Below are positions 1,418 to 49,556 of a stretch of 64,000 nt of DNA, one piece after another. Below the pieces are notes generated by a model. That model had not been told where the DNA came from. It saw nothing but the letters and a program-made list of their open reading frames with translations, and ran no database searches. The stretch is taken from contig NZ_FUYR01000005.1 in assembly GCF_900168015.1 (NCBI RefSeq), positions 62,001-126,000 on the forward strand, read 5' to 3'. The position numbers and the translations under genes were made by a program. The stretch is from Daejeonella lutea (GTDB taxonomy: Bacteria > Bacteroidota > Bacteroidia > Sphingobacteriales > Sphingobacteriaceae). Position 1 is the first letter of the stretch. Every line of letters starts with the position of its first letter.

Positions 1418-1510
1418 TGTTATAGTTTTGGGTATTATGTATCAAGTATCGAATATCGAGGCTGGCGTTTAACCTGAAGATCCGCCGCTCTCAACTGTCA
1501 ACTTTCGAAA
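1418..1510. repeat. Degenerate oligonucleotide-repeat spacer between ccmC and ccmD
   Basis: This 93-bp gap contains low-complexity words such as TATCAAGTATCGAATATCGAG (1440-1460, reading across) and TCAACTGTCAACTTTCG (1493-1509). Similar word-salad occurs at about 21220-21267 and in the arms of the S23-type elements at 33.95-34.48 kb and 47.80-48.33 kb. No gene is seen here. It may be a relic of the same kind of element. Confidence 0.3.
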
Positions 1511-33940: not shown

Positions 33941-33953
33941 GAGTTGTAGGGGA

Positions 33954-33974
33954 TACGTTTTACGTTATAAGTTG
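33954..33974 (+). repeat. Left inverted-repeat arm of the left S23 unit
   Basis: A 21-nt arm matched by the reverse complement of 34456-34476 with two mismatches. It starts 14 bp after the stop of the LuxE-like gene. Confidence 0.6.
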
Positions 33975-34002
33975 CTGGTCGCTTACAGCTTGACGGATAA
34001 CA

Positions 34003-34359
34003 TTAACTGTTTGTTGAACGAACTTTGTGAATTAGGGAGATCCGCATGGCTTCGATTTCGTTTATATTATCATACAAAGAAAGGTGTTCATCTTTCTTTA
34101 AGTACCCGAGATCAGTTGATAATAACAAAAAGTATTCTCTTCATTCGCTGAACCGCGCGCAATATTTAAGAAATTACCTAATTCCTTTTGCGACACTGCA
34201 GGCTTCGGCAATGTTCGCTGGAATACTTGATGCGCATCGCCTCAATTGGTTGGTAGGACTATAAACCTCCTCTTTGGGAAATACTTTTGTAATAGTCTAA
34301 ATTTTCAGAGTTAGCTGATGAGCTTTGTCCCAAACTTTTAATTCTTTGTAATTCTGCAT
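34003..34359 (-). pseudogene. Four-helix-bundle protein (S23 / 23S rRNA IVS family), broken
   Basis: Read on the minus strand from the ATG at 34359 the protein starts MQNYKELKVWDKAHQLTLKI, then meets an in-frame TAG at 34297-34299. It continues in the same frame as TITKVFPKEEVYSPTNQLRR and CASSIPANIAEACS. A frameshift near 34194 restores SQKELGNFLNIARGSANE, and a second near 34135 restores YFLLLSTDLGYLKKDEHLSL, ending in VRSTNS and TAA at 34003. Joined, these match the consensus of the S23-type four-helix-bundle proteins closely. One stop and two shifts make it a pseudogene, still recent enough to read easily. Confidence 0.85.
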
Positions 34360-34455
34360 GTCCTCCAATTTTGATTCCCATCAAACGTAAGAAACATGCA
34401 GTTTTACTTAAAATCCGTCTAACCACCGGTAGTTTCCGATGGGTTATCCGCCATA

Positions 34456-34476
34456 CAACTTAAAACGTATAACGTA
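34456..34476 (-). repeat. Right inverted-repeat arm of the left S23 unit
   Basis: Reverse complement matches 33954-33974 at 19 of 21 positions. Confidence 0.6.
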
Positions 34477-34480
34477 CTAC

Positions 34481-35938
34481 TTATAACTTAAATTTAAAAT
34501 CATCAAACCCTTCTCTATACTTCCTCTGAACAAATTGATTAGCCAGGTCAAAGTTTGTAATTTTCATATTGGCCGAATCCCACAGGAATTTTTTGTTCCG
34601 CCCTGGATATTGGAAGCTATTAGGATTAGCTCCTGGCACGCGAATATCATAAGCGCGGATGGCGAGGTTACCGACCAATAAAGCTTCCGTTAATGGTCCC
34701 GATATAGCAAAGTCCGATCGTAACTCCATTTTTCCATATCCCGCGATCGACGCATCAACCCATTGGGTGTAGTGTCCTTCTTCCTGTCCTGGTACCCGCG
34801 GAAGTGTTTCAGGAACATTTAGATCATCCATTTTCGAGACAGGTAATAATCTTGGATTTCTTCCGTACGCATCGCAAAGTATTTTGCCCTTGGTCCCAAT
34901 AAAAAGAACACCGTTACCGCCATCGCCGAATCTCTCTTCCGGGCCAAGTTCGGCAGGGCGCTCCGGCTGGATTCCGCCATCCATCCAATGCAAACGAACT
35001 GGGGTAACTTGTTTTGAAGAATTAATCGTCATTGTAACATGAGATGAAGGAGGGCAACTATCCGGGAAATAATTTCGTTGACCCTGATCGTTGTAGATGC
35101 TCCCGACACTGCAATCAACATCTGTCGCGTAGGTCAAGCCTAAGGTCTTAAAGGGTACATCAACCATGTGGCAGCCCATATCACCAATTGCGCCGGTTCC
35201 ATACTCCCACCAGCCCCGCCAGTTAAAGGGAACAAGCTTGTCGACATACTCCGTGTAAGGGGCTGTACCCAACCATAGATTCCAATCAAGTTCTTTTGGA
35301 ACTACACTTTTGGTTGCTGGCCATGGAATACCCTGAGGCCATACCGGACGGTTAGTCCAGGCATACACCGTGTGCACTTCTCCTATTAGTCCGGCATTAT
35401 ACCATTCAGTAATACTCGCAGAACCATCAGATGAAGAACCCTGGTTTCCCATTTGTGTCACCACCTTATATTTTTTAGCGGCTTCCGTTAATACTCTCGC
35501 CTCATATATATCATGTGTTAATGGCTTTTGAACATAAACATGCTTTTTTCTTCTCATTGCTTCAAGTGCAACTATCGCATGATTATGATCTGGAGTTGAA
35601 ACCGATACTGCATCAAAATGACGGCGTTCTTTGTCAATCATCTCACGCCAGTCTTTATAATATTTTGCTTTTGGAAAGGCCTTTACAGAATTAGCGGCGC
35701 GTCTGTCGTCAACATCACAAAGAAATGCGATTTCTGCTTTAGGATTCTTTGCAAATCCGGCAAGGTCGCTCTGGCCTTTTCCTCCAACTCCAACACCTGC
35801 AATCAATAGTTTATCACTGGGAGCGATATACCCCTTGCCGCCCAGCACGTGCCGAGGTACAATCATAAAGCCGGCAGCAGCAACACCAGCAGTTTTAACA
35901 AAATCTCGTCTCGAAGTCTTACTCTTTTCTTGTTTCAT
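34481..35938 (-). CDS. Tat-exported Gfo/Idh/MocA family oxidoreductase
   Basis: A 485-residue periplasmic sugar oxidoreductase. The twin-arginine signal KTSRRDFVKTAGVAAAGF (about 7-24) is followed by the nucleotide loop IAGVGVGGKGQ, VQKPLTHD (the EKP-type catalytic-lysine motif) and the substrate-binding domain. Exported members such as glucose-fructose oxidoreductase carry tightly bound NADP. It is the last gene of the minus arm of the 3-keto-sugar cluster, 18 bp after the gluconate-dehydrogenase-like small subunit. Likely role: oxidising or reducing a sugar or keto-sugar in the periplasm. Confidence 0.9.
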   Translation of the reverse strand: MKQEKSKTSRRDFVKTAGVAAAGFMIVPRHVLGGKGYIAPSDKLLIAGVGVGGKGQSDLAGFAKNPKAEIAFLCDVDDRRAANSVKAFPKAKYYKDWREMIDKERRHFDAVSVSTPDHNHAIVALEAMRRKKHVYVQKPLTHDIYEARVLTEAAKKYKVVTQMGNQGSSSDGSASITEWYNAGLIGEVHTVYAWTNRPVWPQGIPWPATKSVVPKELDWNLWLGTAPYTEYVDKLVPFNWRGWWEYGTGAIGDMGCHMVDVPFKTLGLTYATDVDCSVGSIYNDQGQRNYFPDSCPPSSHVTMTINSSKQVTPVRLHWMDGGIQPERPAELGPEERFGDGGNGVLFIGTKGKILCDAYGRNPRLLPVSKMDDLNVPETLPRVPGQEEGHYTQWVDASIAGYGKMELRSDFAISGPLTEALLVGNLAIRAYDIRVPGANPNSFQYPGRNKKFLWDSANMKITNFDLANQFVQRKYREGFDDFKFKL

Positions 35939-35956
35939 TAATATCAGATATTTATT

Positions 35957-36529
35957 TTACGAATTTGCCCACATACGATCACCTTTTTTATAGGGCACAT
36001 TTCCGTCGTATTTTCCTGGGGTTTCTATATAGCGCATTGCTTTTGTTGAACCAATCTCGGAAGTAAAAAAGCCTAGAAGTGTTAACTCCTTTACCATTCT
36101 AAAATAATGAGACGGTTGATCGGCAGTTTTTGCGTCCATATATGCTTTTTGCAACGCATCCATTTTTACAAAAAAATTGGTTCTTTCGTCGGGAGTGCAT
36201 TCCATAAATGCCTTTCCGGTGTCTTCCTTACATCTTTTCTCTAAACGGTCTATACCCTCCCGGAATATACCCTGATCTTTTTTAGTATAACAATCCTTCA
36301 CCATGACCGCCATAAATTCACCCACTTTTGCATCCTTTGCTCCGGGTGTCGTCGTTTTCGGCAAAATTGTTTCAGCCATCTCATTTAACAAAGCGATTGT
36401 TTCATTGTCAAAAAAGTCTTTTGCCTTTTCAGCGCTGGTTTTGCAGCCTGTTTCCAGAAAGATACTTGAGCCAATAATGGTTCCTCCCAATATCCAGCTT
36501 ACCTGCGCTATTGCTTCTCTTCTGTCCAT
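35957..36529 (-). CDS. Gluconate 2-dehydrogenase subunit 3 family protein
   Basis: The small partner of GMC-type membrane dehydrogenases. The 190-residue protein starts MDRREAIAQVSWILGGTIIG, a short Tat-like signal with RR, and contains the family core LNEMAETILPKTTTPGAKDA. In the related FAD-glucose and gluconate dehydrogenases this subunit carries the Tat signal and takes the flavoprotein across the membrane as a hitch-hiker. It lies 4 bp after the GMC oxidoreductase gene, which itself has no signal peptide. Confidence 0.88.
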   Translation of the reverse strand: MDRREAIAQVSWILGGTIIGSSIFLETGCKTSAEKAKDFFDNETIALLNEMAETILPKTTTPGAKDAKVGEFMAVMVKDCYTKKDQGIFREGIDRLEKRCKEDTGKAFMECTPDERTNFFVKMDALQKAYMDAKTADQPSHYFRMVKELTLLGFFTSEIGSTKAMRYIETPGKYDGNVPYKKGDRMWANS

Positions 36530-36533
36530 GAGC

Positions 36534-38213
36534 TTAAATATTACCTTTTTTTAATTCCGCAACAGCATAATCTACTGCACGGGCAGTCATCGCCATATAT
36601 GTTAATGATGGATTCTGACATGCAGCTGAAGTCATGGCGGCACCATCAGTCACGAAAACATTCGTTGCATCCCAAACCTGATTGTATTTGTTCAGAACCG
36701 AAGTCTTTGGATCATGACCCATGCGAGCTGTGCCCATTTCATGAATGCCCATTCCAAGGGTATATCCATTGTCAAACGTTTCTACATTTTTTAACCCCGC
36801 GGCTTCCAGCATATCTTTGGCATCCTGCATCATGTCCTTCCGCATTTTAATCTCGTTCTCCTTAATCTCAGCATCAATAGAAAGGACATTCAATCCCCAC
36901 TTATCCTTCTTAGTTTTGTCCAGGGTAACCTTGTTTTCATGGTAAGGAAGGGTTTCTCCAAATGCGGTGATCCCCATTCTCCAGCCTCCCGGCTCACATA
37001 GCGCATCTTTGAAGTCGCCACCTATACTCATCTCGGCTACATTTCTACCCCAGCCTTCCCGGCTGGCTGAACCCTGGTATCCAAATCCGCGAAGATAATC
37101 TCTCTTCTCATCTCCCAGATTACGAAAGCGGGGGATGTATATTCCATTTGCCCTGCGCCCGTAATAATATTTATCGTCGTATCCTTCCGCCTGGCCCGCA
37201 GCTCCCAGCCTGAAATGATGGTCCATGAGATTGTGGCCGAGCTGACCGCTGCTGCTCCCCAAACCGCCATCCCAAACGTCAGTTGCAGAATTCATCAATA
37301 TCCAGGTTGAATTAAGGGCAGAGGCATTCAGAAAAATGACTTTAGCGAAATACTCGTACGTCTTGTTTGTTTCCGCGTCGAGTACCTCAACACCCTTTGC
37401 CTTTTTGGTGTCCTTATCATAAAGAATCTTAGTGACAATTGAAAATGGGCGAAGTGTCAGATTTCCTGTAGCAACTGCAGCTGGTAACGTTGATGATTGG
37501 GTACTGAAATAGGCCCCAAACGGGCAACCCAACCAGCATTTATTTCTATACTGGCAATTTGTGCGACTTTGCAGGGGCTGAGTAATGTTGGCAACCCGTC
37601 CTATTACCATATTTCGGGCTCCCTTGAAATGGGCTTTTATACGTGCTGCGACATCTTTTTCTACAACGTTCATTTCCATGGCAGGCTGAAAATCTCCATC
37701 TGGCAATTGCGAGAGACCGTCACGGTTCCCGCTGATGCCTGCGAAGCGTTCAACATAGCCATACCATTTCTCCAGGTCTTTATAACGGATCGGCCAATCT
37801 ACAGCAACCCCTTCTTTTGCGTTAGCTTCAAAATCCAGATCACTCAATCGGTAACTTTGCCTGCCCCACATCAGGGAACGTCCGCCAACGTGGTATCCGC
37901 GATACCAGTCAAAACGTTTTACCTCCGTATAAGGACTCTCTTTATCTTTAACCCAATAATCAAGATTCTTCTCATTTAATGGATAATCTCTTTTCAAGAC
38001 TGGGTAGTTTTCAATCATCTCCTGGGTCCTGCCACCGCGGTGCGGAAAATCCCATGGGTTTTTTGTGGCGTTCACATAATCCTTAATATGCTCAATATTT
38101 CGCCCGCGTTCCAGCATTATGGTTTTAAGGCCCTTTTCGGTTAATTCCTTGGCAGCCCATCCGCCGCTGATCCCTGAGCCAATTACAATTGCATCATAAG
38201 TATTGTCAGCCAT
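36534..38213 (-). CDS. GMC family FAD oxidoreductase, likely glucoside 3-dehydrogenase
   Basis: A 559-residue flavoenzyme. FAD-binding VIGSGISGGWAAKEL lies at 10-24, and the catalytic pair is His491 (MGIHEMGTARMG) and Asn534 (CQNPSLTYMA). A cysteine cluster NCQYRNKCWLGC (Cys220, 226, 230) resembles the iron-sulfur site of bacterial FAD-glucose dehydrogenases. The pairing with a subunit-3 gene 4 bp downstream is typical of glucoside 3-dehydrogenase complexes, which oxidise C3 of glucosides and disaccharides and give electrons to cytochrome c. No own signal peptide. Specificity for C3 is inferred from the neighbourhood. Confidence 0.88.
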   Translation of the reverse strand: MADNTYDAIVIGSGISGGWAAKELTEKGLKTIMLERGRNIEHIKDYVNATKNPWDFPHRGGRTQEMIENYPVLKRDYPLNEKNLDYWVKDKESPYTEVKRFDWYRGYHVGGRSLMWGRQSYRLSDLDFEANAKEGVAVDWPIRYKDLEKWYGYVERFAGISGNRDGLSQLPDGDFQPAMEMNVVEKDVAARIKAHFKGARNMVIGRVANITQPLQSRTNCQYRNKCWLGCPFGAYFSTQSSTLPAAVATGNLTLRPFSIVTKILYDKDTKKAKGVEVLDAETNKTYEYFAKVIFLNASALNSTWILMNSATDVWDGGLGSSSGQLGHNLMDHHFRLGAAGQAEGYDDKYYYGRRANGIYIPRFRNLGDEKRDYLRGFGYQGSASREGWGRNVAEMSIGGDFKDALCEPGGWRMGITAFGETLPYHENKVTLDKTKKDKWGLNVLSIDAEIKENEIKMRKDMMQDAKDMLEAAGLKNVETFDNGYTLGMGIHEMGTARMGHDPKTSVLNKYNQVWDATNVFVTDGAAMTSAACQNPSLTYMAMTARAVDYAVAELKKGNI

Positions 38214-38303
38214 TTGTGTTAAACTATTTAGGTTGTAAGTTATACGTTATTTGCTTTCATTAGACTATTAGTAGGCAAAACTTCCGTTACTTTAGCTTTC
38301 AAA

Positions 38304-39188
38304 CTAAACGTCGCACAAAGCAACTGCCTGCCGCAACGAAGCCAGTTTGTCTGCTTTTACAGGAATAAACTCCTGAGCAACAAATCCTTTAAAACCAGTA
38401 CCCACGATAGCCTTCATTATTGCAGGATAGTTTAATTCCTGAAGTTCATCTAATTCATGTCGCCCCGGAACACCAGCGGTATGATAATGTGCAAAATACT
38501 GATGGTTTGCCTTGATGGTGCGGATCACATCACCCTCATCAATCTGCATATGATAAATATCATAAAGTAATTTAAAATTATCAGAACCAACTCGTTTCAC
38601 CAGCTCAACGCCCCATGGTGTTTTATCGCACTGGTAATCTTTATGATCAATTTTGCTGTTAAGCAGTTCCATTACAAGAGTCACCTTGTGTTTTTCAGCA
38701 AGGGCCATCAATTGCTTAAGTCCCTCGGTACTGTTGCTAAGCCCGGTTTCGTCATCCTTTCCAGCCCTGTTACCGCTAAAGCAGATGAGATTTCTATATC
38801 CCGCTTTAGCCACCAGGGGTATCATATCTGAGTAATTCTTCAGAAGTGTTGAATGATACTGCTTATCGTTAAATCCGTTTACAAGGTTAATTTCAGCTCC
38901 GTTGCACATGCTCGATTCGAGTCCATATTTTTGAAGGATAGGCCAATCCTTTGGACCAACAAGGTCTATCGCTTTAAGTCCCATTTCCTTTGCAGCAATA
39001 GCAAGTTCTTCTACAGAAAGCTGATTAAAACACCATCTGCATACTGAATGGTTGATATTTCCCTTAAGTAAACCTGAATGTGTATTCGTCATTTTACCAA
39101 ATGATGAAAGCATAGTTCCCGTGGACAAGGCAGCAGTTCCAGCGATAATACTTTTAAGGGCGCGCCGGCGATTTTCGTTCTTTGCCAT
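38304..39188 (-). CDS. Tat-exported sugar phosphate isomerase/epimerase family TIM-barrel protein
   Basis: A 294-residue AP-endonuclease-2-type TIM barrel of the hydroxypyruvate-isomerase-like group. It starts with a Tat-type signal, NRRRALKSIIAGTAALSTG (6-24). Metal-site motifs visible are VMELLNSK (Glu in the barrel), LLYDIYHMQ (Asp/His) and VAQEFIP near the end. It probably acts on a keto-sugar in the periplasm. It is in the minus arm of the 3-keto-sugar cluster between the GMC gene and the MFS permease. Confidence 0.85.
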   Translation of the reverse strand: MAKNENRRRALKSIIAGTAALSTGTMLSSFGKMTNTHSGLLKGNINHSVCRWCFNQLSVEELAIAAKEMGLKAIDLVGPKDWPILQKYGLESSMCNGAEINLVNGFNDKQYHSTLLKNYSDMIPLVAKAGYRNLICFSGNRAGKDDETGLSNSTEGLKQLMALAEKHKVTLVMELLNSKIDHKDYQCDKTPWGVELVKRVGSDNFKLLYDIYHMQIDEGDVIRTIKANHQYFAHYHTAGVPGRHELDELQELNYPAIMKAIVGTGFKGFVAQEFIPVKADKLASLRQAVALCDV

Positions 39189-39308
39189 TCGTTTTGAATA
39201 TATTACAACCTAAAATTCATCTCTTTCCCGTACACAGAAAATTGAAAGTCATACAAAATTTAACTTTTCACCTACAGTGACAATATCAATCTACATGCTG
39301 GCCAATAA

Positions 39309-40553
39309 TCAACTGCCAGTTTTTAATCTTAAATCATCCTCTTTTTTCTGATTAAATGTTACCGCAAAAAGTACTGCTACAGCTGCAGCAATGCCGGCAG
39401 CCACCAACCATATTCCTTGCCAGTCGTGCTGAGTATCGGAGATCTTATAGGCATCACTGACCAAACCAGCTACCCAAAATCCGATCAGCATGCCTATACC
39501 ATAAGTAGCGAGTGCGATAAGACCCTGAGCAGAGCTCTTGTATTTTTTCCCAGCTTTTGAGTCGGTGTATATTTGACCTGAGACGAAGAAGAAATCATAG
39601 CATATACCATGCAGGGCAATTCCAATGATCAGCATAAAGCTTAAATCACTTGGGTTACCATAGGCGAAAAGCGCATAACGTGCAGCCCAGGCCAGCATAC
39701 CTACAAGTATTGTTTTTTTGAAACCATACTTGCTGAAGAACACAGGCAATAACAATAGGAACAATACTTCTGAAATTTGTCCGATTGTCATTTTACCTGT
39801 CGGATTTGCAACTCCCAGCTCTGAAAGGAAAAGATTCGCATTCTGGTAGTAAAATGCCAGGGGTATACAGATCAATATAGACGAAACAAAAAATATCAGA
39901 AAATTTTTATTGCCAAGCAGCTTTAAAGCGTCCAGGCCAATAATATCAGAAATCGTAACCTTCTCCCCTTTTTCAACGGCTGGCGGAGTTTTCGGAAGCG
40001 TGAAGCTGAATAAGCCTAAAACTGCGGAAACAATTGCTGCCATCATAAATGTATTTCTCAATAAGCCCTCAGAAACACCTTCTGCAGAGTCCCAATGGAA
40101 AACGAAGCTTATGCAAAGCCCGGCAACAATCCAACCAATCGTACCCCAGATCCGGATGGATGAAAACTCCTTTTCAGGATCCTTCATCTGATTAAAAGAG
40201 ACTGAATTGACCAGGGCCAATGTGGGCATAAACATGATCATGTATGCGAATACATATGGATAGAATCCTGCAAAATCTGTCGAATTATACATTTGAAACA
40301 TCAGAACTGCCCCGATCAGGTGAAGAATCCCGAGGATCTTTTCAGCATTAAAATACCTGTCGGCAATTAGACCGATAATGAACGGAGCTATAATAGCACC
40401 GAACGACTGAGTAGAAAAAACAGCTGCGGTTTGTGAACCTGTGGCAGAGAGCTCTTTACCCAAAAAAGTCCCGAGAGTTACAAACCAGGCCCCCCAGATA
40501 AAGAATTCCATAAACATCATTAGTGATAATTTGACACGATTGGTAGGGCTCAT
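39309..40553 (-). CDS. MFS permease, nucleoside:H+ symporter-like
   Basis: Inner-membrane secondary transporter of 414 residues with 12 hydrophobic segments. The N-terminal MMFMEFFIWGAWFVTLG and the layout resemble the NupG/XapB nucleoside-permease family. In Bacteroidota, members of this family often lie in sugar clusters. It is the first gene of the minus arm of the 3-keto-sugar cluster, so it is more likely to import an oxidised sugar than a nucleoside. It is divergent from the giant ThuA fusion gene. Confidence 0.87.
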   Translation of the reverse strand: MSPTNRVKLSLMMFMEFFIWGAWFVTLGTFLGKELSATGSQTAAVFSTQSFGAIIAPFIIGLIADRYFNAEKILGILHLIGAVLMFQMYNSTDFAGFYPYVFAYMIMFMPTLALVNSVSFNQMKDPEKEFSSIRIWGTIGWIVAGLCISFVFHWDSAEGVSEGLLRNTFMMAAIVSAVLGLFSFTLPKTPPAVEKGEKVTISDIIGLDALKLLGNKNFLIFFVSSILICIPLAFYYQNANLFLSELGVANPTGKMTIGQISEVLFLLLLPVFFSKYGFKKTILVGMLAWAARYALFAYGNPSDLSFMLIIGIALHGICYDFFFVSGQIYTDSKAGKKYKSSAQGLIALATYGIGMLIGFWVAGLVSDAYKISDTQHDWQGIWLVAAGIAAAVAVLFAVTFNQKKEDDLRLKTGS

Positions 40554-40947
40554 AGCTTCAAAAATTGGTTTTTAGTTTGAATCGAAATAATAAAAAATTA
40601 ATGAAAATAAAGCAAAACGGCGATGTAAACTACTGATTATAAGGCTTTGGTGTAAGTTATACACGAAGTACTTATATTTTTATGGCTTAACATAGCGTAA
40701 ATGCAATATTTGAATAATGTAATTTAGTTTACTTGTATTAAATAAATGTATATTTTTATTTTTAAAAATCATACTAGCCGAATAAAAAGACAACAAGACA
40801 GAAGCGAACGAACTTGTAATAACACCTTCGCTAGCTTTTCCGGAAGATGTTTGTTCAGCAATGGAACAAGTATGACATTTTACATTATGTACAAAGATCT
40901 GAAACGCTTGTTCCGTGTCTTCATTCCAATACCGTAATATAACCAAC
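40554..40947. other. 394-bp divergent control region of the 3-keto-sugar cluster
   Basis: The two arms of the cluster are transcribed outward from here. It holds the palindrome GTGTAAGTTATACAC at 40650-40664, long A/T tracts at about 40730-40770, and GGAACAAG/CTTGTTCC inverted words at about 40864 and 40908. No real gene was found; the open frames on both strands here have no recognisable product. No cluster-specific regulator gene is present in the window. Confidence 0.5.
40650..40664. promoter_or_regulatory. Palindrome GTGTA-N5-TACAC in the cluster control region
   Basis: Same arms and 5-bp spacer as the site at 17959-17973 by the NUDIX-type regulator. It is 97 bp before the MFS start and 284 bp before the ThuA-fusion start. 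Caution: the words TGTAAGTTATAC also occur at about 38238 in junk-like sequence upstream of the GMC gene, so this could be part of a repeat family instead. Confidence 0.35.
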
Positions 40948-43900
40948 ATGAGAAATTCTACCCTTGTATTAATAGCCACAGGAATACTGCTGTCGCTGTT
41001 TTCTTTCCGTTTACTGAAACAAACGGTAAAGCCACGGATTTTGGTTTTTAGTAAAACGGCCGGCTTTCGCCATGAATCGATTGCCGCCGGCAAAGCAGCA
41101 ATTATTAAACTAGGTAAAGAACAGGGTTTCCTGGTCGACACAACAGAAAGTGTCAGCTATTTTACAGAAGATTCGTTGAAAAAATATAAGGCAGTTGTTT
41201 TCCTGAGCACAACGGGCAATATTCTAAACGCCCCTCAGCAAATTGCATTTGAGCGTTATATCCAGGCCGGCGGCGGGTATGCCGGAGTTCATGCAGCTGC
41301 CGATACAGAATACGACTGGGAATGGTATGGCAAACTGGTCGGCGGGTATTTTCTCAGTCATCCCAAAACTCAGGAAGCTGTTGTCAATGTTACCGATCGG
41401 GCAAATGCATCAACGAGTCACCTTCCGGAAAAATGGAAACGTACTGACGAGTGGTATAATTATAAAACGCTAAATCCTAATGTCAGGGTCCTGGCTTCGC
41501 TGGATGAATCGAGCTATGAAGGCGGCAAAAACGGAAGCAATCATCCAATTGCCTGGTATCATCAATATGACGGAGGTCGAGCGTTCTACACAGGAATGGG
41601 ACACACCAAAGAATCTTTTGATGATCCTTTATATCTCAAACACCTGTTGGGAGGTATTAAATATGCGATTGGAAATAATGTTGTTTTAAATTATTCTAAA
41701 GCAACAACAGCGAAAGCTCCCGAGGAAAACAGATTTGTTCGTACAATTCTGACACAGGGAACTCTGTTTGAACCTACTGAGATGACCATCCTTCCAAATC
41801 TGGACATCCTCCTTGTTCAACGTCGTGGGGAAATCATGCTTTATAAGGAACAAACAAAGACCATAAGCCAGATCGCATCGCTGGATGTTTATTCTAAAAC
41901 ATCCGTTCCCGGAGTTAATGCTGAAGAAGGTATTCTAGGTCTTGCCGCCGATCCTAATTTTAAAGAGAACAATTATGTTTATATCTACTATAGTCCGATA
42001 GACACTTCCGTTAATCGCTTATCCCGGTTTAAATTCGTCAACGACAAACTGGACAAGTCCTCTGAGAAAATTATTCTTCAGCTTTATTCGCAGCGTGAAA
42101 TCTGCTGCCATACCGGTGGATCAATTGCCTTTGGACCAGACGGACTTTTATATCTTTCAACTGGCGATAATTCAACCCCATTTGATGTGCCAAATCAACA
42201 GTTTACAAACAAAGGATTTGGACCTATGGACAATCGCCCGGGGCTTGAGCAATATGATGCGGGCCGAAGTTCTGGTAACACCAACGATCTGCGTGGAAAA
42301 ATCCTGCGGATAAAACTTAAGCCTGACGGCTCGTATGAAATTCCTGCAGGCAACCTCTTTCCCCCAAATACTCCATTAACAAGACCAGAAATCTATGTGA
42401 TGGGAAATAGAAATCCTTACCGGATTTCAATCGATAGTAAAACTAATTTCCTATACTGGGGTGAGGTTGGCCCTGATGCAAATGCCGATAGCCCTGAGAG
42501 GGGCCCTCGGGGATATGACGAATTGAATCAAGCCAGAAAAGCAGGTTTCTTCGGCTGGCCTTATTTTGTAGGAAACAATTATGCCTACAGACAATATGAT
42601 TACAAAACGGGAACCAGCGGCGAGCCTTTTGACAAGTTGAAACCCGTTAACAATTCTCCAAACAATACCGGATTAAAAGAGCTCCCTTCGGTAGAACCTG
42701 CATTTATTTGGTATCCATATGCGGAATCAAAGGAATTTCCGCAATTAGGTACAGGTGGCAGAAATGCGGAGGCCGGGCCGGTTTATCACAGTGAGCTATA
42801 TCCCAAAGAAACGCGTTATCCGGCGTATTATGATAATAAGCTATTTATGTATGACTGGATACGTGGATGGGTGAAGGCTGTTACTATGCACCCTAATGGG
42901 GATTATGATAATATGGAGCCATTCATGGGATCGTCACCATTTATTGCACCGATTGATATGGAAGTTGGACCGGATGGAAGACTGTATGTGTTAGAATATG
43001 GAAAAGGGTGGTTCACCCAAAATCCAGATGCCGGATTAATAAGGATCGATTATATTTCGGGAAATCGTCCGCCTAAGGTCGATGACCTTGTCATCACCAA
43101 TACAAGCGGTACCATGCCATACAAGCTGCAGGCAAAGGTGATTGCGAGTGATCCGGACAACGATGCATTGAGTTACGTTTGGGATCTCGGTAACGGAACT
43201 AAAAAAACTACCATTCAACCTTCAATCGAATATGTGTATCCCAAAGCGGGTGAGTTCCCTGTCAGCGTAGAAGTAATCGACAAAACAAAAGCAAGCACTT
43301 CGAGTGTAAAGAAAAATGTGTTTGCGGGTAATTCCAGACCGAAGCTGAACGTCGCATTAAAAGGAAATAAAACATTCTATTTTCCGGGCAAGCCAATCAG
43401 CTATGAGATTTTGGTAACTGATCAGGGATCAAATGTCAACAGAAGTAAAATATACGTTGCCAGCAATTATACCAAAGGGACCGATATGGCCGGGGCGGCT
43501 CTTGGTCATCAGGAAGTACCTGATGTCCAAATTGGCGAGGGATTAATGCTAAAGTCAGATTGTTCCGCATGCCATAAAGTAAACGCTGTTTCAGTTGGTC
43601 CGTCATTTACAGCAGTCTCCAATAAGTATCAAACACAGGCAAATGCAATAAATTATATTGCGACAAAGATATTGAAAGGCAGCAGCGGAGTCTGGGGCGA
43701 GGTGGCGATGCCGGCACATGCAACAATGCCTGAATCTGATGCACAAAAAATTGCGCAATATGTATTATCGCTTGGGAGCAAAAGCTCTTCAAAACCAAGC
43801 TTACCCGCGCAAGGTCAGATAATCCCTGAATCAGGCTCAGAAGAAAATAACACTTTTGTGATCAATGCATCGTATACCGATGCTGGTTCTGCCGGGGTAA

Positions 43901-44328
43901 ATCCCCTGACCGGTACTGGAGCTGCTTACCTTCGAAGTAATGTCATTAATGCGCGTGAAATAACTCAGCGGGCACGTTTAGCTTTGAAAGATTCCACTTC
44001 AACCGGCCTGATTGCTTATCCGCAAAATGATGGGTGGATAAAACTTAAAGGTATTGACCTTACCGGCATTGGCAGTATTGACCTGAGTTCCTTAAATGGA
44101 AATGAGGCTGGATCTTATTCGGTCGAAGTGAGGTTAGATCAGGAAAATGGAAAGTTAATAGGCAGTTCCGAAATAAATTCAGGTGGTACGCAGAAGCAGC
44201 TCAACTCCCTGATTAATTTACAGTCGGCGGGAGATTCAAAGTTCCATGATTTGTATATCATTGTTAAATCAAACAACGCGATCAGACGAAGGCCATTTCT
44301 TCAATCGATAAAATTTAATTCTATCTAA
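40948..44328 (+). CDS. ThuA / sugar dehydrogenase / PKD / cytochrome c / CBM fusion protein
   Basis: A 1126-residue secreted multidomain protein. I chose the ATG at 40948, which begins with the signal/anchor (MRNSTLVLIATGILLSLFSF); a start at 40915 adds 11 residues. Domains by position: ThuA-like (about 29-245, RILVFSKTAGFRHESI), a PQQ-type glucose/sorbosone dehydrogenase propeller (about 275-690), a PKD fold (about 715-790, DPDNDALSYVWDLGNG), a cytochrome c domain with CSACH (Cys872, Cys875, His876) and a C-terminal carbohydrate-binding module (about 960-1126). ThuA proteins of rhizobia act in 3-keto-trehalose metabolism. It starts the plus arm of the cluster. Confidence 0.88.
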   Translation: MRNSTLVLIATGILLSLFSFRLLKQTVKPRILVFSKTAGFRHESIAAGKAAIIKLGKEQGFLVDTTESVSYFTEDSLKKYKAVVFLSTTGNILNAPQQIAFERYIQAGGGYAGVHAAADTEYDWEWYGKLVGGYFLSHPKTQEAVVNVTDRANASTSHLPEKWKRTDEWYNYKTLNPNVRVLASLDESSYEGGKNGSNHPIAWYHQYDGGRAFYTGMGHTKESFDDPLYLKHLLGGIKYAIGNNVVLNYSKATTAKAPEENRFVRTILTQGTLFEPTEMTILPNLDILLVQRRGEIMLYKEQTKTISQIASLDVYSKTSVPGVNAEEGILGLAADPNFKENNYVYIYYSPIDTSVNRLSRFKFVNDKLDKSSEKIILQLYSQREICCHTGGSIAFGPDGLLYLSTGDNSTPFDVPNQQFTNKGFGPMDNRPGLEQYDAGRSSGNTNDLRGKILRIKLKPDGSYEIPAGNLFPPNTPLTRPEIYVMGNRNPYRISIDSKTNFLYWGEVGPDANADSPERGPRGYDELNQARKAGFFGWPYFVGNNYAYRQYDYKTGTSGEPFDKLKPVNNSPNNTGLKELPSVEPAFIWYPYAESKEFPQLGTGGRNAEAGPVYHSELYPKETRYPAYYDNKLFMYDWIRGWVKAVTMHPNGDYDNMEPFMGSSPFIAPIDMEVGPDGRLYVLEYGKGWFTQNPDAGLIRIDYISGNRPPKVDDLVITNTSGTMPYKLQAKVIASDPDNDALSYVWDLGNGTKKTTIQPSIEYVYPKAGEFPVSVEVIDKTKASTSSVKKNVFAGNSRPKLNVALKGNKTFYFPGKPISYEILVTDQGSNVNRSKIYVASNYTKGTDMAGAALGHQEVPDVQIGEGLMLKSDCSACHKVNAVSVGPSFTAVSNKYQTQANAINYIATKILKGSSGVWGEVAMPAHATMPESDAQKIAQYVLSLGSKSSSKPSLPAQGQIIPESGSEENNTFVINASYTDAGSAGVNPLTGTGAAYLRSNVINAREITQRARLALKDSTSTGLIAYPQNDGWIKLKGIDLTGIGSIDLSSLNGNEAGSYSVEVRLDQENGKLIGSSEINSGGTQKQLNSLINLQSAGDSKFHDLYIIVKSNNAIRRRPFLQSIKFNSI

Positions 44329-44342
44329 TATTAATACAGTTT

Positions 44343-45509
44343 ATGAACAGAAAATTAAGAATGGGCATGGTTGGCGGCGGAAAGGATGCCTTCATTGGCG
44401 CCATCCACAGAATTGCTGCCAATATGGATGGGCTTGTAGAACTTAGCTGCGGAGCTTTAAGTATAAACCCCGAAATAGCACGCGAAAGTGGTAAAATGTT
44501 ATTCCTTCCGGAAGAGAGAACATATCTCACTTTCGAAGAAATGATCGAAAAAGAAACTAAGCTTCCGGCGGATCAGAAAATTGACTTCGTAACTATTGTA
44601 ACCCCGAACTTTGCACATTTTGCACCTGCGATGATGGCCCTCGACAATGGATTTCACGTAGTTATCGAAAAGCCTATAGCATTTACACTGGATGAAGCAA
44701 AACAACTTCAGCAGAAAGTTAAGGAAACGGGCCTTATCCTGCTTCTCACTCATACATATGCAGGTTATCCAATGGTAAAACAAGCCAAGCAGATGATTAA
44801 GGATAATGTGCTTGGCAAAGTTCGAAAGATATGGGTAGAATATCCGCAAGGATGGTTAAGCCGCTTATCTGAACGTGAAGGAAATGCTCAGGCAGCTTGG
44901 CGAACAGATCCCAAGAAATCCGGAAAAAGTGGAAGCATGGGAGATATCGGGACGCACGCAGCTCACTTAGCTGAATACATTTCAGGCCTAAAGATCACTA
45001 AAGTATGTGCTGATCTAAACATAGTTGTTGAAGGGCGCCAGCTGGATGACGACGGAAATGTATTGTTGAAGTTTGATAACGGAGCAAATGGTGTGCTTAT
45101 GGCATCACAGGTTGCAGCTGGTGAGGAAAATGCACTAAAAATCCGGGTTTACTGTGAAAATGGCGGTCTGGAATGGGCTCAGCATGAACCTAATACATTA
45201 CTTGTAAAATGGCTGGACAGACCGACCGAAATATTACGCGCGGGTGCAGGTTACACCGACAGGCTCTCTTCATATGCTACCCATAATTGCAGAACACCAG
45301 GAGGCCATCCTGAAGGATATCTTGAAGCATTCGGAAATCTCTACCGGAATTTCGCACTTGCACTTTCTGCCAGAATCGATGGGACAGAAGCTTCGGCTGA
45401 AATCCTCGATTTCCCTTCGGTAGAAGAAGGTATTCGCGGAATGGCGTTCATCGACAACGTTGTTCGAAGCAACGAGAGTACTGAAAAATGGACTGATTAC
45501 ACGGTTTAA
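44343..45509 (+). CDS. Gfo/Idh/MocA family oxidoreductase, ThuB-like context
   Basis: A 388-residue cytoplasmic NAD(P)-linked oxidoreductase: nucleotide loop GMVGGGKDAFIG (8-19, with a longer loop than usual), VIEKPIAF (Lys in the EKP motif, about 110-117) and a C-terminal domain with GDIGTHAAHLAEY. No signal peptide. It lies 14 bp after the ThuA fusion gene and 9 bp before the isomerase. In rhizobia a Gfo/Idh/MocA partner (ThuB) works with ThuA on 3-keto disaccharides, so a keto-sugar reductase or dehydrogenase role is likely. Confidence 0.88.
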   Translation: MNRKLRMGMVGGGKDAFIGAIHRIAANMDGLVELSCGALSINPEIARESGKMLFLPEERTYLTFEEMIEKETKLPADQKIDFVTIVTPNFAHFAPAMMALDNGFHVVIEKPIAFTLDEAKQLQQKVKETGLILLLTHTYAGYPMVKQAKQMIKDNVLGKVRKIWVEYPQGWLSRLSEREGNAQAAWRTDPKKSGKSGSMGDIGTHAAHLAEYISGLKITKVCADLNIVVEGRQLDDDGNVLLKFDNGANGVLMASQVAAGEENALKIRVYCENGGLEWAQHEPNTLLVKWLDRPTEILRAGAGYTDRLSSYATHNCRTPGGHPEGYLEAFGNLYRNFALALSARIDGTEASAEILDFPSVEEGIRGMAFIDNVVRSNESTEKWTDYTV

Positions 45510-45518
45510 TTCTAGGAT

Positions 45519-46571
45519 ATGAAAACGATAAAAGGACCAGGAGTATTTCTTGCACAATTTATTAGCGACGACGCACCGTTTAACAGCCTCGAATCTATTT
45601 GCAAGTGGGCTAAAAGCCTGGGTTTTGTGGGAGTTCAAATCCCAACATTGGATCCCCGCTTCATCGATTTGCAAAAGGCTGCTGAAAGTAAAACCTATGC
45701 AGACGAGATTAAAGGTGTTGTAAATTCATGCGGGCTTGAGATCACGGAACTGTCAACTCACTTACAAGGTCAACTGGTAGCCGTTAATCCAGCTTTTGAT
45801 CAGCCATTTGATGCCTTTGCGCCAGCTCATCTACAAAATAATCCGAAAGCCAGACAGGAATGGGCAGTTCAGCAAATGAAATATGCCGCAACAGCGTCCA
45901 AAAATCTGGGTTTGAATGCACATGCAACTTTCAGCGGATCATTATTATGGCATATGTGGCACCCCTGGCCTCAAAGAGCGGACGGTTTAGTGGATATGGC
46001 TTTCACTGAACTTGCTAAACGCTGGACACCAATCCTTGACCATTTCGATAAAGAAGGTGTGGATGTGTGTTATGAAATCCACCCGGGTGAGGACCTTTTT
46101 GATGGAGTCACTTATGAAATGTTCCTGGAAAAAGTTAACAACCATCCTCGCGCATGTCTGTTGTACGACCCGTCACACTTTGTCCTCCAGCAGCTGGATT
46201 ACATTCAGTACATCGATCATTATCATGAACGCATTAAAGCATTCCATGTTAAAGATGCTGAATTCAACGCTACTGGAAAACAAGGAACCTTTGGAGGATA
46301 CCAAAGCTGGGCCAATCGTGCAGGGCGTTATCGTTCTCCAGGCGATGGCCAGGTAGACTTCAAAAAAATCTTCAGTAAATTAACTCAGTATGATTATTCT
46401 GGCTGGGCAGTCATGGAATGGGAATGCTGTATTAAACACCCTGAGGACGGAGCCCGCGAAGGTGCTGTATTCATCAAGGATAACATTATACGGGTTACCG
46501 AGAAAGCATTTGACGATTTTGCGTCTGGCGCCAGCAATGATGATATCAACCGCAAGATTTTAGGAATTTAA
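45519..46571 (+). CDS. Sugar phosphate isomerase/epimerase family protein, cytoplasmic
   Basis: A 350-residue TIM-barrel metalloenzyme of the same superfamily as the exported protein at 38304, but with no signal. Metal-site segments include VCYEIHPGED (Glu/His), LLYDPSHF (Asp/His), AFHVKDAEF (His) and WAVMEWECC (Glu). Close spacing (9 bp) to the Gfo/Idh/MocA gene suggests they act in series on the same imported keto-sugar. The reaction is inferred. Confidence 0.87.
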   Translation: MKTIKGPGVFLAQFISDDAPFNSLESICKWAKSLGFVGVQIPTLDPRFIDLQKAAESKTYADEIKGVVNSCGLEITELSTHLQGQLVAVNPAFDQPFDAFAPAHLQNNPKARQEWAVQQMKYAATASKNLGLNAHATFSGSLLWHMWHPWPQRADGLVDMAFTELAKRWTPILDHFDKEGVDVCYEIHPGEDLFDGVTYEMFLEKVNNHPRACLLYDPSHFVLQQLDYIQYIDHYHERIKAFHVKDAEFNATGKQGTFGGYQSWANRAGRYRSPGDGQVDFKKIFSKLTQYDYSGWAVMEWECCIKHPEDGAREGAVFIKDNIIRVTEKAFDDFASGASNDDINRKILGI

Positions 46572-46627
46572 ATTTAAAACACTACATTCACAATCCTGTT
46601 GACACTAGACATATAAACTCTTTTGCG

Positions 46628-47062
46628 ATGAAAAAAATAATCTTTATCCTGGGGATATGCGGTATCGTTGCTGCCTGCAGTAATAGTGGAGAATCAGGAT
46701 CAACAGACACTACTTCAGCTGGGGCGAACCAATCTGCGACAGCCCAACAGTCAAATGCAGATACAAACGTCAATAATATTGGCACAGATTCACCTTCATC
46801 ATCAGGTGGTAATGGCGAACAGCTAATAAATAAAAGTGATTGCCTGACATGTCATCAAGTTGAAGTAAAGCTGCTTGGACCTGCCTATCAGGAGGTGGCG
46901 GCTAAATATCCTGCTACAGAAGAAAATATTGCGATGCTTGCTGGCAAAATCATTAAGGGCGGAGCAGGAAATTGGGGAGATATACCAATGGCCCCGCACC
47001 CTTCGATTAGCGAAGGCGATGCGAAAGAAATGGTTAAGTACATACTATCCTTAAAAAAATAA
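46628..47062 (+). CDS. c-type cytochrome lipoprotein
   Basis: A 144-residue electron carrier. A lipoprotein signal (lipobox VAAC, Cys17) is followed by a serine/threonine/glutamine-rich linker (about 18-64) and a class I cytochrome c domain with the heme motif CLTCH (Cys72, Cys75, His76) and a distal methionine in DIPMAPHP. It resembles the cytochrome domain of the ThuA fusion and is probably anchored in the membrane as acceptor for the GMC flavoenzyme. Part of the plus arm of the cluster. Confidence 0.9.
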   Translation: MKKIIFILGICGIVAACSNSGESGSTDTTSAGANQSATAQQSNADTNVNNIGTDSPSSSGGNGEQLINKSDCLTCHQVEVKLLGPAYQEVAAKYPATEENIAMLAGKIIKGGAGNWGDIPMAPHPSISEGDAKEMVKYILSLKK

Positions 47063-47064
47063 AT

Positions 47065-47769
47065 ATGAGATCAATAAACGTAATGATTCTTGGAGCGGCT
47101 CTACTGGCTGGATGCAGCTCCTCAAAAGATGGTGTAAACAATTCGAATTCCAAAGGATGGCAAAAGCTGTTCGACGGTAAAACAACCACCGGATGGCATA
47201 CCTATCGTAAACCAACAGCTGGTACCGATTGGAAAGTTGTAGATGGCGCCTTATTCCTGGATACCAAGAATAAAACAGCCGGACAAGGAGGCGATCTGGT
47301 AACTAACGAAGAATTTACCAACTACCATTTGAAATTGGAGTGGAAAATATCTCCGGGAGGGAATAGCGGGATAATTTTTAACGTGAATGAGGATCCTAAG
47401 TACGGCGCCACATATACAACTGGACCTGAAATGCAGGTAATCGACAATGACGGACACTCTGACGGCAAAATCACAAAACATCGCGCAGGAGATCTTTACG
47501 ACCTGGTAAAAAGCCGCGTTGAAAACGTTAAGCCCGTTGGACAATGGAACACAGCCGAGATTATTCTAAACAACGGTAATCTTGAACTTATCCAAAACGG
47601 CGAATCGGTAGTAAAAACCACTATGTGGGATGATAATTGGAAAGCCCTTGTAGCCAACAGTAAATTCAAAACCTGGCCTGCCTTCGGTATTTACAAAACC
47701 GGTAAAATTGCCCTTCAGGATCATGGAAATGATGTTTGGTATAGGAATATTTCTATTAAAAGGCTCTAG
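47065..47769 (+). CDS. DUF1080 / 3-keto-disaccharide hydrolase family lipoprotein
   Basis: A 234-residue protein with a lipoprotein signal (lipobox LLAGC, Cys17) and the DUF1080 jelly-roll fold: WQKLFDGKTTTGWHTY (about 32-47), WKISPGGNSGIIF, YTTGPEMQVIDNDGH and the C-terminal LQDHGNDVWYRNISIK. This family includes enzymes shown in Bacteroides to split 3-keto-disaccharides. Two bases separate it from the cytochrome gene, so it ends the plus-arm operon. It fits the step after C3 oxidation of a glucoside. Confidence 0.92.
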   Translation: MRSINVMILGAALLAGCSSSKDGVNNSNSKGWQKLFDGKTTTGWHTYRKPTAGTDWKVVDGALFLDTKNKTAGQGGDLVTNEEFTNYHLKLEWKISPGGNSGIIFNVNEDPKYGATYTTGPEMQVIDNDGHSDGKITKHRAGDLYDLVKSRVENVKPVGQWNTAEIILNNGNLELIQNGESVVKTTMWDDNWKALVANSKFKTWPAFGIYKTGKIALQDHGNDVWYRNISIKRL

Positions 47770-47796
47770 ATTTCAATGGAGAGAATTTTCTAAATA

Positions 47797-47852
47797 ATGA
47801 ATCGATAACTGAAAGCTGAAAACTGAAAGTTGAAGCACAGTTATCGATTCAT
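47797..47852. repeat. 15-bp perfect inverted repeat at the end of the right S23 gene
   Basis: ATGAATCGATAACTG (47797-47811) is repeated in inverse orientation at 47838-47852. The second copy encodes the last three residues and stop (M-N-R-stop) of the S23-type gene on the minus strand. The 26-nt loop is made of CTGAAAG-type words. It could form a stable RNA stem at the 3' end of the transcript. Confidence 0.7.
47807..47836 (+). repeat. Left inverted-repeat arm of the right S23 unit
   Basis: 30-nt arm beginning AACTGAAAGCTG and ending TTGAAGC; its inverse copy is at 48301-48330 with four mismatches. Confidence 0.65.
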
Positions 47853-48200
47853 GGAGGATTTTGTAGTTTTAACGGTACTCACTAGCATTTGAATTATTTC
47901 TTTGCAATCCGGCATAATGGCCGAAAATTCCTCAATTGTAAGATAGCTGGAGTCTTTCAATAGAAATAACCAAAATTTAGTTTCATTTGCTTCCTTCAAA
48001 GCAATGTTCATTTTATTCAAGAAATCGGCTTTGGACTGGGCATGTTCGGCTTCGTAACTTAAAGCACCAGGAGCTGTCCCACTTCTCAATAATTGTTTTG
48101 AAAGCACGAACTCCTTTTTATTCTCACACAAGAATTTATAGAGCTTTATGATTCTAATCGCAAACGCGTAGGTTTTAATCTGTATAATACTTTCTCTCAT
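47841..48200 (-). CDS. Four-helix-bundle protein (S23 / 23S rRNA IVS family)
   Basis: A 119-residue protein, start chosen at the ATG 48200 (MRESIIQIKTYAFAIRIIKL), which is the family start; the frame extends to 48221 with no support. The family core FVLSKQLLRSGT, then AEHAQSKADFLNKMNIALKEANETKFW split over the middle, and MLVSTVKTTKSS are clear. The usual SIGANxxEA segment reads APGALSYEA, a mild divergence. Members are encoded inside 23S rRNA intervening sequences or stand alone, and their function is unknown. It lies between inverted repeats and converges on the DUF1080 gene. Confidence 0.88.
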   Translation of the reverse strand: MRESIIQIKTYAFAIRIIKLYKFLCENKKEFVLSKQLLRSGTAPGALSYEAEHAQSKADFLNKMNIALKEANETKFWLFLLKDSSYLTIEEFSAIMPDCKEIIQMLVSTVKTTKSSMNR

Positions 48201-48300
48201 AGTTGTGCAAGTATGGTGCAACCTATTAAAGAGATATCCACATAGAAGGAAAAACTTAGTTCAGGGTATAGCTCGCTGATTTAACGGTATTAAACGTTTC

Positions 48301-48330
48301 GCTTCAATTTTCAGTTTTCCACTTTCAGCT
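48301..48330 (-). repeat. Right inverted-repeat arm of the right S23 unit
   Basis: Reverse complement matches 47807-47836 at 26 of 30 positions. Confidence 0.65.
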
Positions 48331-48332
48331 CC

Positions 48333-49556
48333 TTATTGCGACTTACCTCGGGCCAGCACCGGTATAACCTGTACCACCTTGTCGTTCCGGGTTCCGTAAA
48401 TAACATCATAAAGATTTACAATTGGATCGCAATGAGGAGCGACAAGTTCTAATTTATCACCTACTTTGTAGGTTTTATTAGACTTCTCAAATGTGATAAC
48501 ACCGTATTCATCGGATCCGGCGTTGTAGTTGAAATCTGGTTCGCCAAGTACTAGTGGATTTGGCTTGTTAAGAGTAAAAGCTTTGGAGCCTGAGTCGGTG
48601 GTGAGCCTTCCGGCATGATAGTTATTGACTATGGTCGACATCACCGTGAGGGAAGTTTCAAAATCATCAAACACCTTCTCATTCCTTGCACCGCCAATCT
48701 CGATGTATTGCCGGTCCATAAATACATAGCTGCCTACCTGCACATCAGTAAATCCAGGAACAACACTCATAATGTCATAGGTTCCGGTGCCTGCACCGCT
48801 AAATATTTCCATGTTCATTCCCGCCGCCTTCATCATCTCATAGGTTTTGATAACTGGTTCATAAGCCTTAAGCGCTTGTGCCTGCCGTTTCTTAAAACCA
48901 ACGACATGCTGAACTCCCCCATCGTAGGCAAGAATACCGCAAAATCTAAGATTGGGCATTTTGTCAATCATCTGCGCTAGCAACATTGCGGGTTCGCCGG
49001 GTGGCACACCTGATCTTCTGATCACATCGATATCAAGAACGACTTCGGCTTTAATGCCCGCAGCTTTGGCCGCATCCTGAAGATCCTGAATGTTCTGAGG
49101 GTTATCAACTGCCTGAATAAAACCCTTGTGCTTCTTCCGCAACGCGATGGCTTTGATGATCTTCGGCGCCGTAACGTTCACAGTGGTCATGAGAACATTT
49201 TTGATCCCATTCTCGAGCATCACTTCCGCTTCACCCAGTTTGGCAGCACAGACGCCGACTGCACCAGCAGCAATCTGCATTTTCGCGATGAAAGGCGATT
49301 TATGAGTTTTAACATGCGGGCGAACACCAACACCGCTACCCTGCAAACGAGTGTGTACAGCCTTAATATTTCGATCCATTTTGTCGAGATCAACAACTAA
49401 GGCGGGCGTATCCAGATCCCATTTTGATTTACCAATTGAATCTTTGTCCAGAATCATATCCAGGTTATTTGCTTGTAAAGTAGATGTTAATAGAGTTCCG
49501 GTGCCGGCGAGAGCGCTTGTTTGCAGGAAATTGCGGCGGCTGAAAGAATTCGACAT
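48333..49556 (-). CDS. Exported DSD1-type PLP enzyme (D-threonine aldolase / D-serine dehydratase-like)
   Basis: A 407-residue fold-type III PLP enzyme with an alanine-racemase-like N-terminal barrel. Motifs: DTPALVVDLDKMDRN (49-63), RPHVKTHKS with the PLP lysine Lys83, and the C-terminal metal-site region LVAPHCDP. It begins with a Tat-like signal, SRRNFLQTSALAG (6-18), so it may act outside the cytoplasm, which is uncommon for this family. It lies next to the right S23 unit and may be unrelated to the sugar cluster. Confidence 0.87.
   Translation of the reverse strand: MSNSFSRRNFLQTSALAGTGTLLTSTLQANNLDMILDKDSIGKSKWDLDTPALVVDLDKMDRNIKAVHTRLQGSGVGVRPHVKTHKSPFIAKMQIAAGAVGVCAAKLGEAEVMLENGIKNVLMTTVNVTAPKIIKAIALRKKHKGFIQAVDNPQNIQDLQDAAKAAGIKAEVVLDIDVIRRSGVPPGEPAMLLAQMIDKMPNLRFCGILAYDGGVQHVVGFKKRQAQALKAYEPVIKTYEMMKAAGMNMEIFSGAGTGTYDIMSVVPGFTDVQVGSYVFMDRQYIEIGGARNEKVFDDFETSLTVMSTIVNNYHAGRLTTDSGSKAFTLNKPNPLVLGEPDFNYNAGSDEYGVITFEKSNKTYKVGDKLELVAPHCDPIVNLYDVIYGTRNDKVVQVIPVLARGKSQ

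Follow-up and report, generated by a model that had tools for sequence, protein, structure and literature searches.

Two inverted-repeat units with S23-family genes in Daejeonella lutea appear to belong to a widespread class of very small mobile elements

The 64,000-nt stretch of Daejeonella lutea contig NZ_FUYR01000005.1 analysed here (positions 62,001 to 126,000; hereafter the window) holds two short units, each with a gene of the S23 family between inverted repeats, at the two ends of its 3-keto cluster. Genes of this family are known from the intervening sequences (IVSs) of 23S rRNA, and the locus raises the question of what such units are when they stand between protein genes, and whether they mark the cluster as transferred. 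Judged by sequence comparison, the two units appear to belong to a widespread class of very small mobile elements. Each is probably a small mobile element of a kind mostly 400-650 bp long, in which an S23 gene is flanked on both sides by arrays, in inverted orientation, of a repeat of 7 nt (sometimes 8 nt) associated with the S23 lineage. The features of the two units are as follows.

33954-33974, plus strand: left arm of unit 1, heptamer array TACGTTT TACGTTA TAAGTTG read inward on the plus strand, complementary to the right arm at 19/21 positions
34045-34347, minus strand: S23 (PF05635) pseudogene of unit 1 (E = 5.6e-23), with one TGA, one TAG and one TAA in frame
34456-34476, minus strand: right arm of unit 1, reverse complement TACGTTATACGTTTTAAGTTG
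47797-47852, plus strand: perfect 15-bp hairpin, stems 47797-47811 and 47838-47852, the loop containing most of the unit 2 left arm
47809-47836, plus strand: left arm of unit 2, CTGAAAG CTGAAAA CTGAAAG TTGAAGC, complementary to the right arm at 25/28 positions
47841-48221, minus strand: intact S23 / four-helix bundle gene of unit 2, 126 codons with a TTG start, profile match at 47880-48188
48301-48328, minus strand: right arm of unit 2, pairing with left arm 47809-47836

Both inverted-repeat units had been proposed by the first-pass annotation and were recovered. Unit 1 spans 523 bp, and the arms of unit 2 can alternatively be paired at 26/30 positions over 47807-47836 and 48301-48330. The arm score, obtained by aligning the left flank against the reversed right flank, was 15 for unit 1 and 19 for unit 2, above the maximum of 11 at 139 control positions within the window. 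The arms of both units are tandem arrays with a 7-nt period; the heptamers differ (ACGTTAT-like in unit 1, CTGAAAA-like in unit 2), as do the S23 lineages on the S23 tree. One S23 gene per unit had been annotated. That of unit 2 is intact and matches PF05635 (E = 3e-22, 79.3 bits; curated cut-off 33.8) and TIGR02436 (E = 2.5e-27, 95.2 bits; curated cut-off 24), S23 being the sole family matched in profile searches, whereas that of unit 1 is a pseudogene, which scores 83 bits to the S23 profile despite its three in-frame stops. Both units lie outside the 16S and 23S rRNA genes with protein genes as neighbours, and no Rfam match at the gathering score was found in window positions 33000-49500. 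Together with the profile matches and the paired arms, this bears out the description of IVS-like S23 units outside rRNA.

In the whole genome (4.03 Mb), ten S23 matches above the family cut-off and one weak match make up 11 loci; two further very weak fragments, one of which overlaps unit 1, stand outside this count. Arms score 15-32 at nine of these loci, and the remaining two (scores 8 and 10) show heptamer-like runs by eye. The heptamers include GTATCAA, ACGTTAT (twice), GGCATTA, AACCAAG, AGTAATC, GTTGACA and CTGAAAA, and one locus has an 8-nt period instead, ATTTGAAG. We extended the comparison to 20 relatives and counted 118 of the 124 S23 matches in the 21 genomes, leaving out five fragments below the cut-off and one further match (G020:C94). 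A check suggested by the first-pass annotation, namely whether free-standing S23 genes have inverted flanks, came out positive: arms matched at a score of at least 12 in 97/118 loci and of at least 16 in 68/118, compared with 22/354 and 5/354 when the left flank of one locus was paired with the right flank of another. Within this genome, 8/400 random and 11/400 intergenic-start positions reached 12, and 0/800 reached 16. Chance or base composition as the source of the arms was rejected on these three controls. Among 86 loci with a score of at least 14, the best period was 7 in 68 and 8 in 14, and the arms, read inward, were richer in G than in C at 74 loci, poorer at seven and balanced at five. 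The dinucleotide AG was present in 89 of 114 consensus heptamers; with shuffled letters, 60.9 would be expected (at most 75 in 500 shuffles). Two further genomes of the phylum had arms at 16 of 24 loci examined (25 matches, the second piece of one gene being left out). The distribution of S23 in the phylum is patchy (90 of 118 genomes).

The same design was found in other phyla. Named genomes were scanned with the S23 profile and the best 80 of 590 loci by protein likeness were taken, from which L261 and L313 were left out as repeats of L014 and L045 with identical arms. In the resulting 78 loci, arms reached a score of at least 12 in 52 and at least 16 in 38, compared with 16/234 and 7/234 mismatched pairs. 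Armed loci outside the phylum belong, by their record titles, to Terriglobia, Clostridia, Deltaproteobacteria, Thiohalocapsa, a betaproteobacterium, Gemmataceae and Ignavibacteriae; the Terriglobia locus carries 22 perfect copies of AGTTCTC per side. The excess of G over C in arms read inward recurs in 40/47 strong-armed loci of these named taxa. Six genomes behind the named loci had arms at 27 of 29 S23 loci, which is no fair rate since most of them had been picked for a strong-armed first locus; the 29 come from 37 matches, after one fragment and seven matches without a fetched locus were left out, and six of them repeat earlier named loci. Arms of at least 22 were found at eight of ten S23 loci of cyanobacterial plasmids (e.g. 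GGGAGTA, AGGGAAC, AGGTGAC and GGGTGTA), the ten being drawn from 42 matching records and including two copies of one segment. Short tandemly repeated repetitive (STRR) heptanucleotide sequences have long been known in cyanobacteria, and the plasmid S23 arms resemble them. Two Calothrix plasmids were considered as a recent jump and rejected, as they share a larger segment and not a lone unit. In Pseudanabaena galeata and Anabaena sp. 90, the interval from cas6 to cas4 holds an S23 unit (L326 and L327), with a different heptamer in each.

At close range, the heptamer goes with the S23 lineage. For this comparison, we used pairs whose genus codes or taxon labels differ, although a shared genus may be concealed behind a label such as "Flavobacteriales". 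Of 23 pairs at an S23 identity of at least 70%, 87% had heptamers no more than one mismatch apart, as did 37% of 79 pairs at 60-70%. The best non-kin neighbour shared the heptamer in 29/102 elements compared with 5.5% after shuffling, and none of 2000 shuffles was as high. The S23 tree has few columns and many open forks; on it, AGATTTG/AGATATG arms fall within one 26-member clade (support 85), which also contains other heptamers and spans the window's genus, Flavihumibacter, Mucilaginibacter, Flammeovirgaceae, Cyclobacteriaceae and Bacteroidales. Similarly, AGTAGTC, AGTTGTC and AGTTCTC arms group a deltaproteobacterium, Gemmataceae and Terriglobia (support 84). Because heptamer agreement is high between close S23 proteins and low between distant ones, the arms are inherited or carried with the S23 gene and drift apart at larger distance. 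Before close relatives were collapsed, periods 7 and 8 also clustered on the tree (9 changes compared with 19.9 shuffled).

If the units move, sites with and without them should be found, and such sites exist. The unit 2 site is readable in seven same-genus genomes, of which this genome (G000), G003, G007 and G010 have an S23 unit and G004, G009 and G002 have none. At the unit 1 site, the spacer is too short for S23 in all ten relatives in which it is readable. Unit 1 neighbours are rearranged in G003 (G003:C9 697084-700077; L175, L185, L017), where an S23 unit still adjoins the LuxE-like gene. The empty-site comparison proposed in the first-pass annotation succeeded in part: it gave clean boundaries in Nostoc plasmids and none at the window's own sites, where exact ends are unreadable because the relatives are only about 70% alike. 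Nostoc plasmids, 88-96% alike, differ in whether a given gene boundary carries a unit, and the ends are clean. One boundary (B|C, readable in 7/9 records) holds a unit in three plasmids, one of them with a broken S23 gene, and runs straight through in four; the next (C|D) holds a unit of another lineage and heptamer in one plasmid and none in six. At a TraM boundary (5/14 records readable), a unit was found in two records, none in two, and array-like arms only in one, whose 260-bp spacer is too short for S23. Between nrdB and nrdA, one plasmid has a unit and another, 85% alike, has none. The spacer A|B contains, in four of the seven plasmids read at B|C, S23-free inserts framed by arrays of the heptamer type of the resident units, one insert being nested inside another in two of the four; the other three plasmids have none. 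Nested inserts of this kind are seen in L338 and L339, in the latter with an extra small hairpin in the middle. Dolichospermum was rejected as a clean empty site for the Anabaena 90 unit; it is without S23, yet a different insert occupies the site.

Presence and absence at one boundary in the Nostoc plasmids makes the small mobile element suspected in the first-pass annotation probable, and we infer that the units move and that the S23 protein recognises the repeats. A resident reverse transcriptase or Y1 transposase appears not to be needed for the presence of a unit, because each is missing from some S23-bearing genomes: in a search restricted to these families, RVT_1 was found in 7/21 and Y1_Tnp in 16/21, with one and none, respectively, in this genome. 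The S23 profile matches the solved structures 2RLD and 2GSC. Avd of diversity-generating retroelements and XCC0516 (2GSC) are described as homologous four-helix bundle proteins, and the title cited for the 2GSC structure refers to an assembly of five four-helix bundles (PMC10053308). Unlike Avd retroelements, the units have no reverse transcriptase gene beside them, as the single RVT_1 match of the genome lies on contig C10 and the units on C4. Miniature inverted-repeat transposable elements (MITEs) and repetitive extragenic palindromes with their RAYT transposases (REP-RAYT) are short inverted-repeat elements without a transposase of their own, multiplied in trans. The S23 units resemble them in being short, bounded by inverted repeats and devoid of a transposase, and differ in that their ends are tandem heptamer arrays and in that a Y1 transposase was not found in five of the 21 S23-bearing genomes, including this one.

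As a mechanism, an oligomeric S23 protein might recognise its own heptamer array, either as DNA ends or as the RNA stem formed by the two arms, and hold the ends of the element together, while host enzymes would copy it and join it at gene borders. The arrays would lengthen and shorten by slippage. Array-only copies could be moved or seeded in trans in the manner of MITEs and would pile up as heptanucleotide repeats, and rRNA IVSs might be the same unit landed in rRNA.

The last point touches the closest known system. In Coxiella, the IVS in helix 45 of the 23S rRNA contains an S23 open reading frame, is closed by a 28-bp terminal stem and is cut by RNase III, and the heptamers repeated in tandem at the insert's 5' end vary in copy number between strains; the hypothesis that such inserts were mobile is an old one (PMC4990558). 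The window units share with rRNA IVSs the S23-family reading frame in an insert (400-500 nt for IVSs) with pairing ends, terminal inverted repeats being present in both. They differ in sitting between protein genes, in having heptamer arrays in both arms that are specific to the S23 lineage at close range, and in having arms-only relatives; they are not filed as IVSs because they are outside rRNA. In the light of the Coxiella case, the arms might instead act in RNA, forming a double-stranded stem around S23 that would be cut by RNase III and render the insert harmless to the transcript, so that they would be insulation and not the ends of a mobile element. In agreement with this, the predicted fold of the unit 2 transcript is closed by the arms (z -2.5). 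Furthermore, at the unit 2 site both arms of G007 and G010 read TTGAGAG/TGGAGAA instead of the CTGAAAA of G000 and G003, so that the heptamers differ and yet match within each unit; the units of G007 and G010 may be separate insertions. However, such a role leaves unexplained both the same-heptamer arrays found elsewhere in the genome and the repeat length of 7 nt. We consider it possible, though rather doubtful, that it accounts for the arms, and it is compatible with the small mobile element that we prefer.

Heptamer arrays are indeed frequent away from S23 genes. In 464 kb of this genome, 33 arrays have a period of 7, one of them being the unit 2 left arm, whereas each other period from 2 to 12 gave 0-5. 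Inverted pairs 300-800 bp across are rare; a search with exact seeds, which misses unit 1, found unit 2, a second pair of arrays and one pair lacking periodicity. In a 400-kb sample, none of the 31 arrays is near a known S23 locus and several are crowded together. Heptamer arrays of this genome lie at gene borders with a preferred polarity. Arms of the S23 units of this genome match 22 of the 31 at a score of at least 14, while those of six other genomes match 3-12 of the same arrays, the higher values coming from genomes that share an S23 lineage. In G053, its own arms match 5/10 arrays at a score of at least 12, compared with 2/10 for the arms of G085. Five S23-rich genomes gave 11 arrays in 400 kb in total, two of which are the arms of one S23 unit. 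Two dense stretches (L137:9477-10223 and L136:403-862) contain many arrays of two kinds side by side, GTTGACA-like and AGTAATC-like. The window itself contains one array away from the units.

1431-1460, plus strand: lone GTATCAA-type heptamer array, resembling by eye the arms of an S23 unit elsewhere in the genome (L001)

Similar repeats have been described in other bacteria, including TAACTGA (PMC4679880), GGGAATC of Xanthomonas and GGGGA(C/T)T of Nostoc (Rehm 2015, PMC4692102). The GGGAATC arrays of Xanthomonas, 70-75 of which are inverted pairs, lie near the ends of genes, and their G strand has the same orientation as in the S23 arms (PMC4692102). The arrays found here share with these repeats the period of 7 and the mostly intergenic position. 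The term "S23" is absent from the main texts of PMC4679880 and PMC4692102, which offer slippage or transfer by an unknown route, and no element, as the source of the repeats. We tentatively propose, as something close to an even call, that S23 units are the autonomous members of a bacteria-wide mobile class, in which a four-helix protein reads a 7-nt code without a recombinase: each lineage would recognise its own array, have it at both ends and seed array-only copies in trans, and the heptanucleotide repeats found in cyanobacteria, xanthomonads and Bacteroidota would be footprints of S23 elements. If this is true, a common uncharacterised bacterial protein family gains a role, heptanucleotide repeats gain a source and rRNA IVSs become a special case of a wider element; it also raises the questions of how a unit without a recombinase moves and whether a four-helix protein reads a 7-nt period. 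In a search limited to open-licence papers, we found no prior description of S23 with heptamer arms.

The link between heptamer arrays and S23 units was tested blind in the class to which the Thiohalocapsa genome belongs: 369 genomes were searched for three copies of GGGAATC in a row with the backward pattern as a control, and S23 was looked for only afterwards. The pattern matched in one genome (G510) and the backward control in another (G298). As expected, G510 has one S23 gene, frameshifted, between GGGAATC-type arrays (score 22). G298 also has one S23 gene, between AGGGCCA/AGGGCTG arrays (score 31), with the control-pattern heptamer AGGGCTA at the outer end of the right arm.

Several observations weigh against S23 units as mobile elements and against their wider role. 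In the blind test, the S23 search covered two of the 369 genomes (the Thiohalocapsa genome having been searched earlier), which provides no base rate. Matched arms are lacking at 21/118 loci of the 21 genomes and at 26/78 named loci of other taxa. Once S23 identity falls under 60%, the heptamer shows hardly any correlation with the gene (7% agreement at 50-60% and 3% below 40%), and the clustering of period 8 is lost once members at least 60% identical are collapsed (9 changes compared with 10.3 shuffled), so that period 8 was dropped as an independent mark of the S23 lineage. The likeness between arms is 0.893, compared with 0.901 for independent arrays of one heptamer (72 loci); the arms are thus no closer than independent arrays, and copying of whole arms by gene conversion is not indicated. 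In G085, none of three arrays matches its own arms at a score of at least 12, two of the three being arms of one S23 unit, and no array was found in 80 kb each of G123 (13 S23 genes) and G128 (12 S23 genes). The unit contains no recombinase or nuclease. Finally, junction repeats in the Nostoc plasmids are short and depend on the site, reading TA or TTCTA at one boundary and ATG at a second, which gives no more than a hint of target repeats.

The abundance of arrays could also mean that they arise alone at gene borders by slippage, S23 genes merely inserting between or into them. Arrays without S23 are far commoner than S23 (31 arrays in 400 kb compared with 11 loci in 4.03 Mb); at the unit 1 site, judged by eye, four relatives, and more weakly a fifth, lack S23 and have a terminator surrounded by unpaired heptamer arrays; and polymerase slippage is cited by Rehm 2015 (PMC4692102). 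Nevertheless, we regard this origin as unlikely. Within a unit, one arm matches the other; closely related S23 genes of different taxa have a heptamer in common; and the other arrays match resident S23 arms. In addition, no period-7 array was detected in 400 kb of four S23-free genomes, three of which are GC-rich, while two of the five S23-rich genomes also had none.

Alternatively, S23 might be a regulator that binds a specific sequence, the arrays at gene ends being its many operator sites and nothing being mobile. This would suit the position of the arrays at gene borders with a preferred polarity, in this genome as in the repeats described by Rehm 2015 (PMC4692102), and the close-range link between heptamer and protein. 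It is quite improbable given whole units present or absent at one boundary in near-identical plasmids, an S23 pseudogene with three stops in unit 1 and the patchy distribution in the phylum.

That the cluster was transferred as a package and is bracketed by the units for that reason, as their position at its two ends had suggested in the first-pass annotation, is hardly credible, since in a comparison of border genes G004, G007 and G010 keep those of both sites on one contig each with similar spacing (about 16 kb in G004:C2, as in the window, and 17-18 kb in G007 and G010), G004 having neither unit and G007 and G010 an S23 unit at the unit 2 site only, and since the two units differ in heptamer and S23 lineage. 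Border-gene synteny contradicts a transfer marked by the units, which look like passengers at the borders of the cluster and not signs of its transfer.

Two minor observations concern the surroundings of S23 units. The hairpin at 47797-47852 encloses most of the unit 2 left arm, giving the impression that the array inserted into a terminator loop or expanded out of one. In six same-genus genomes (L043, L046, L051, L052, L054 and L055), two S23 genes of different lineages lie about 1.7-1.9 kb apart.

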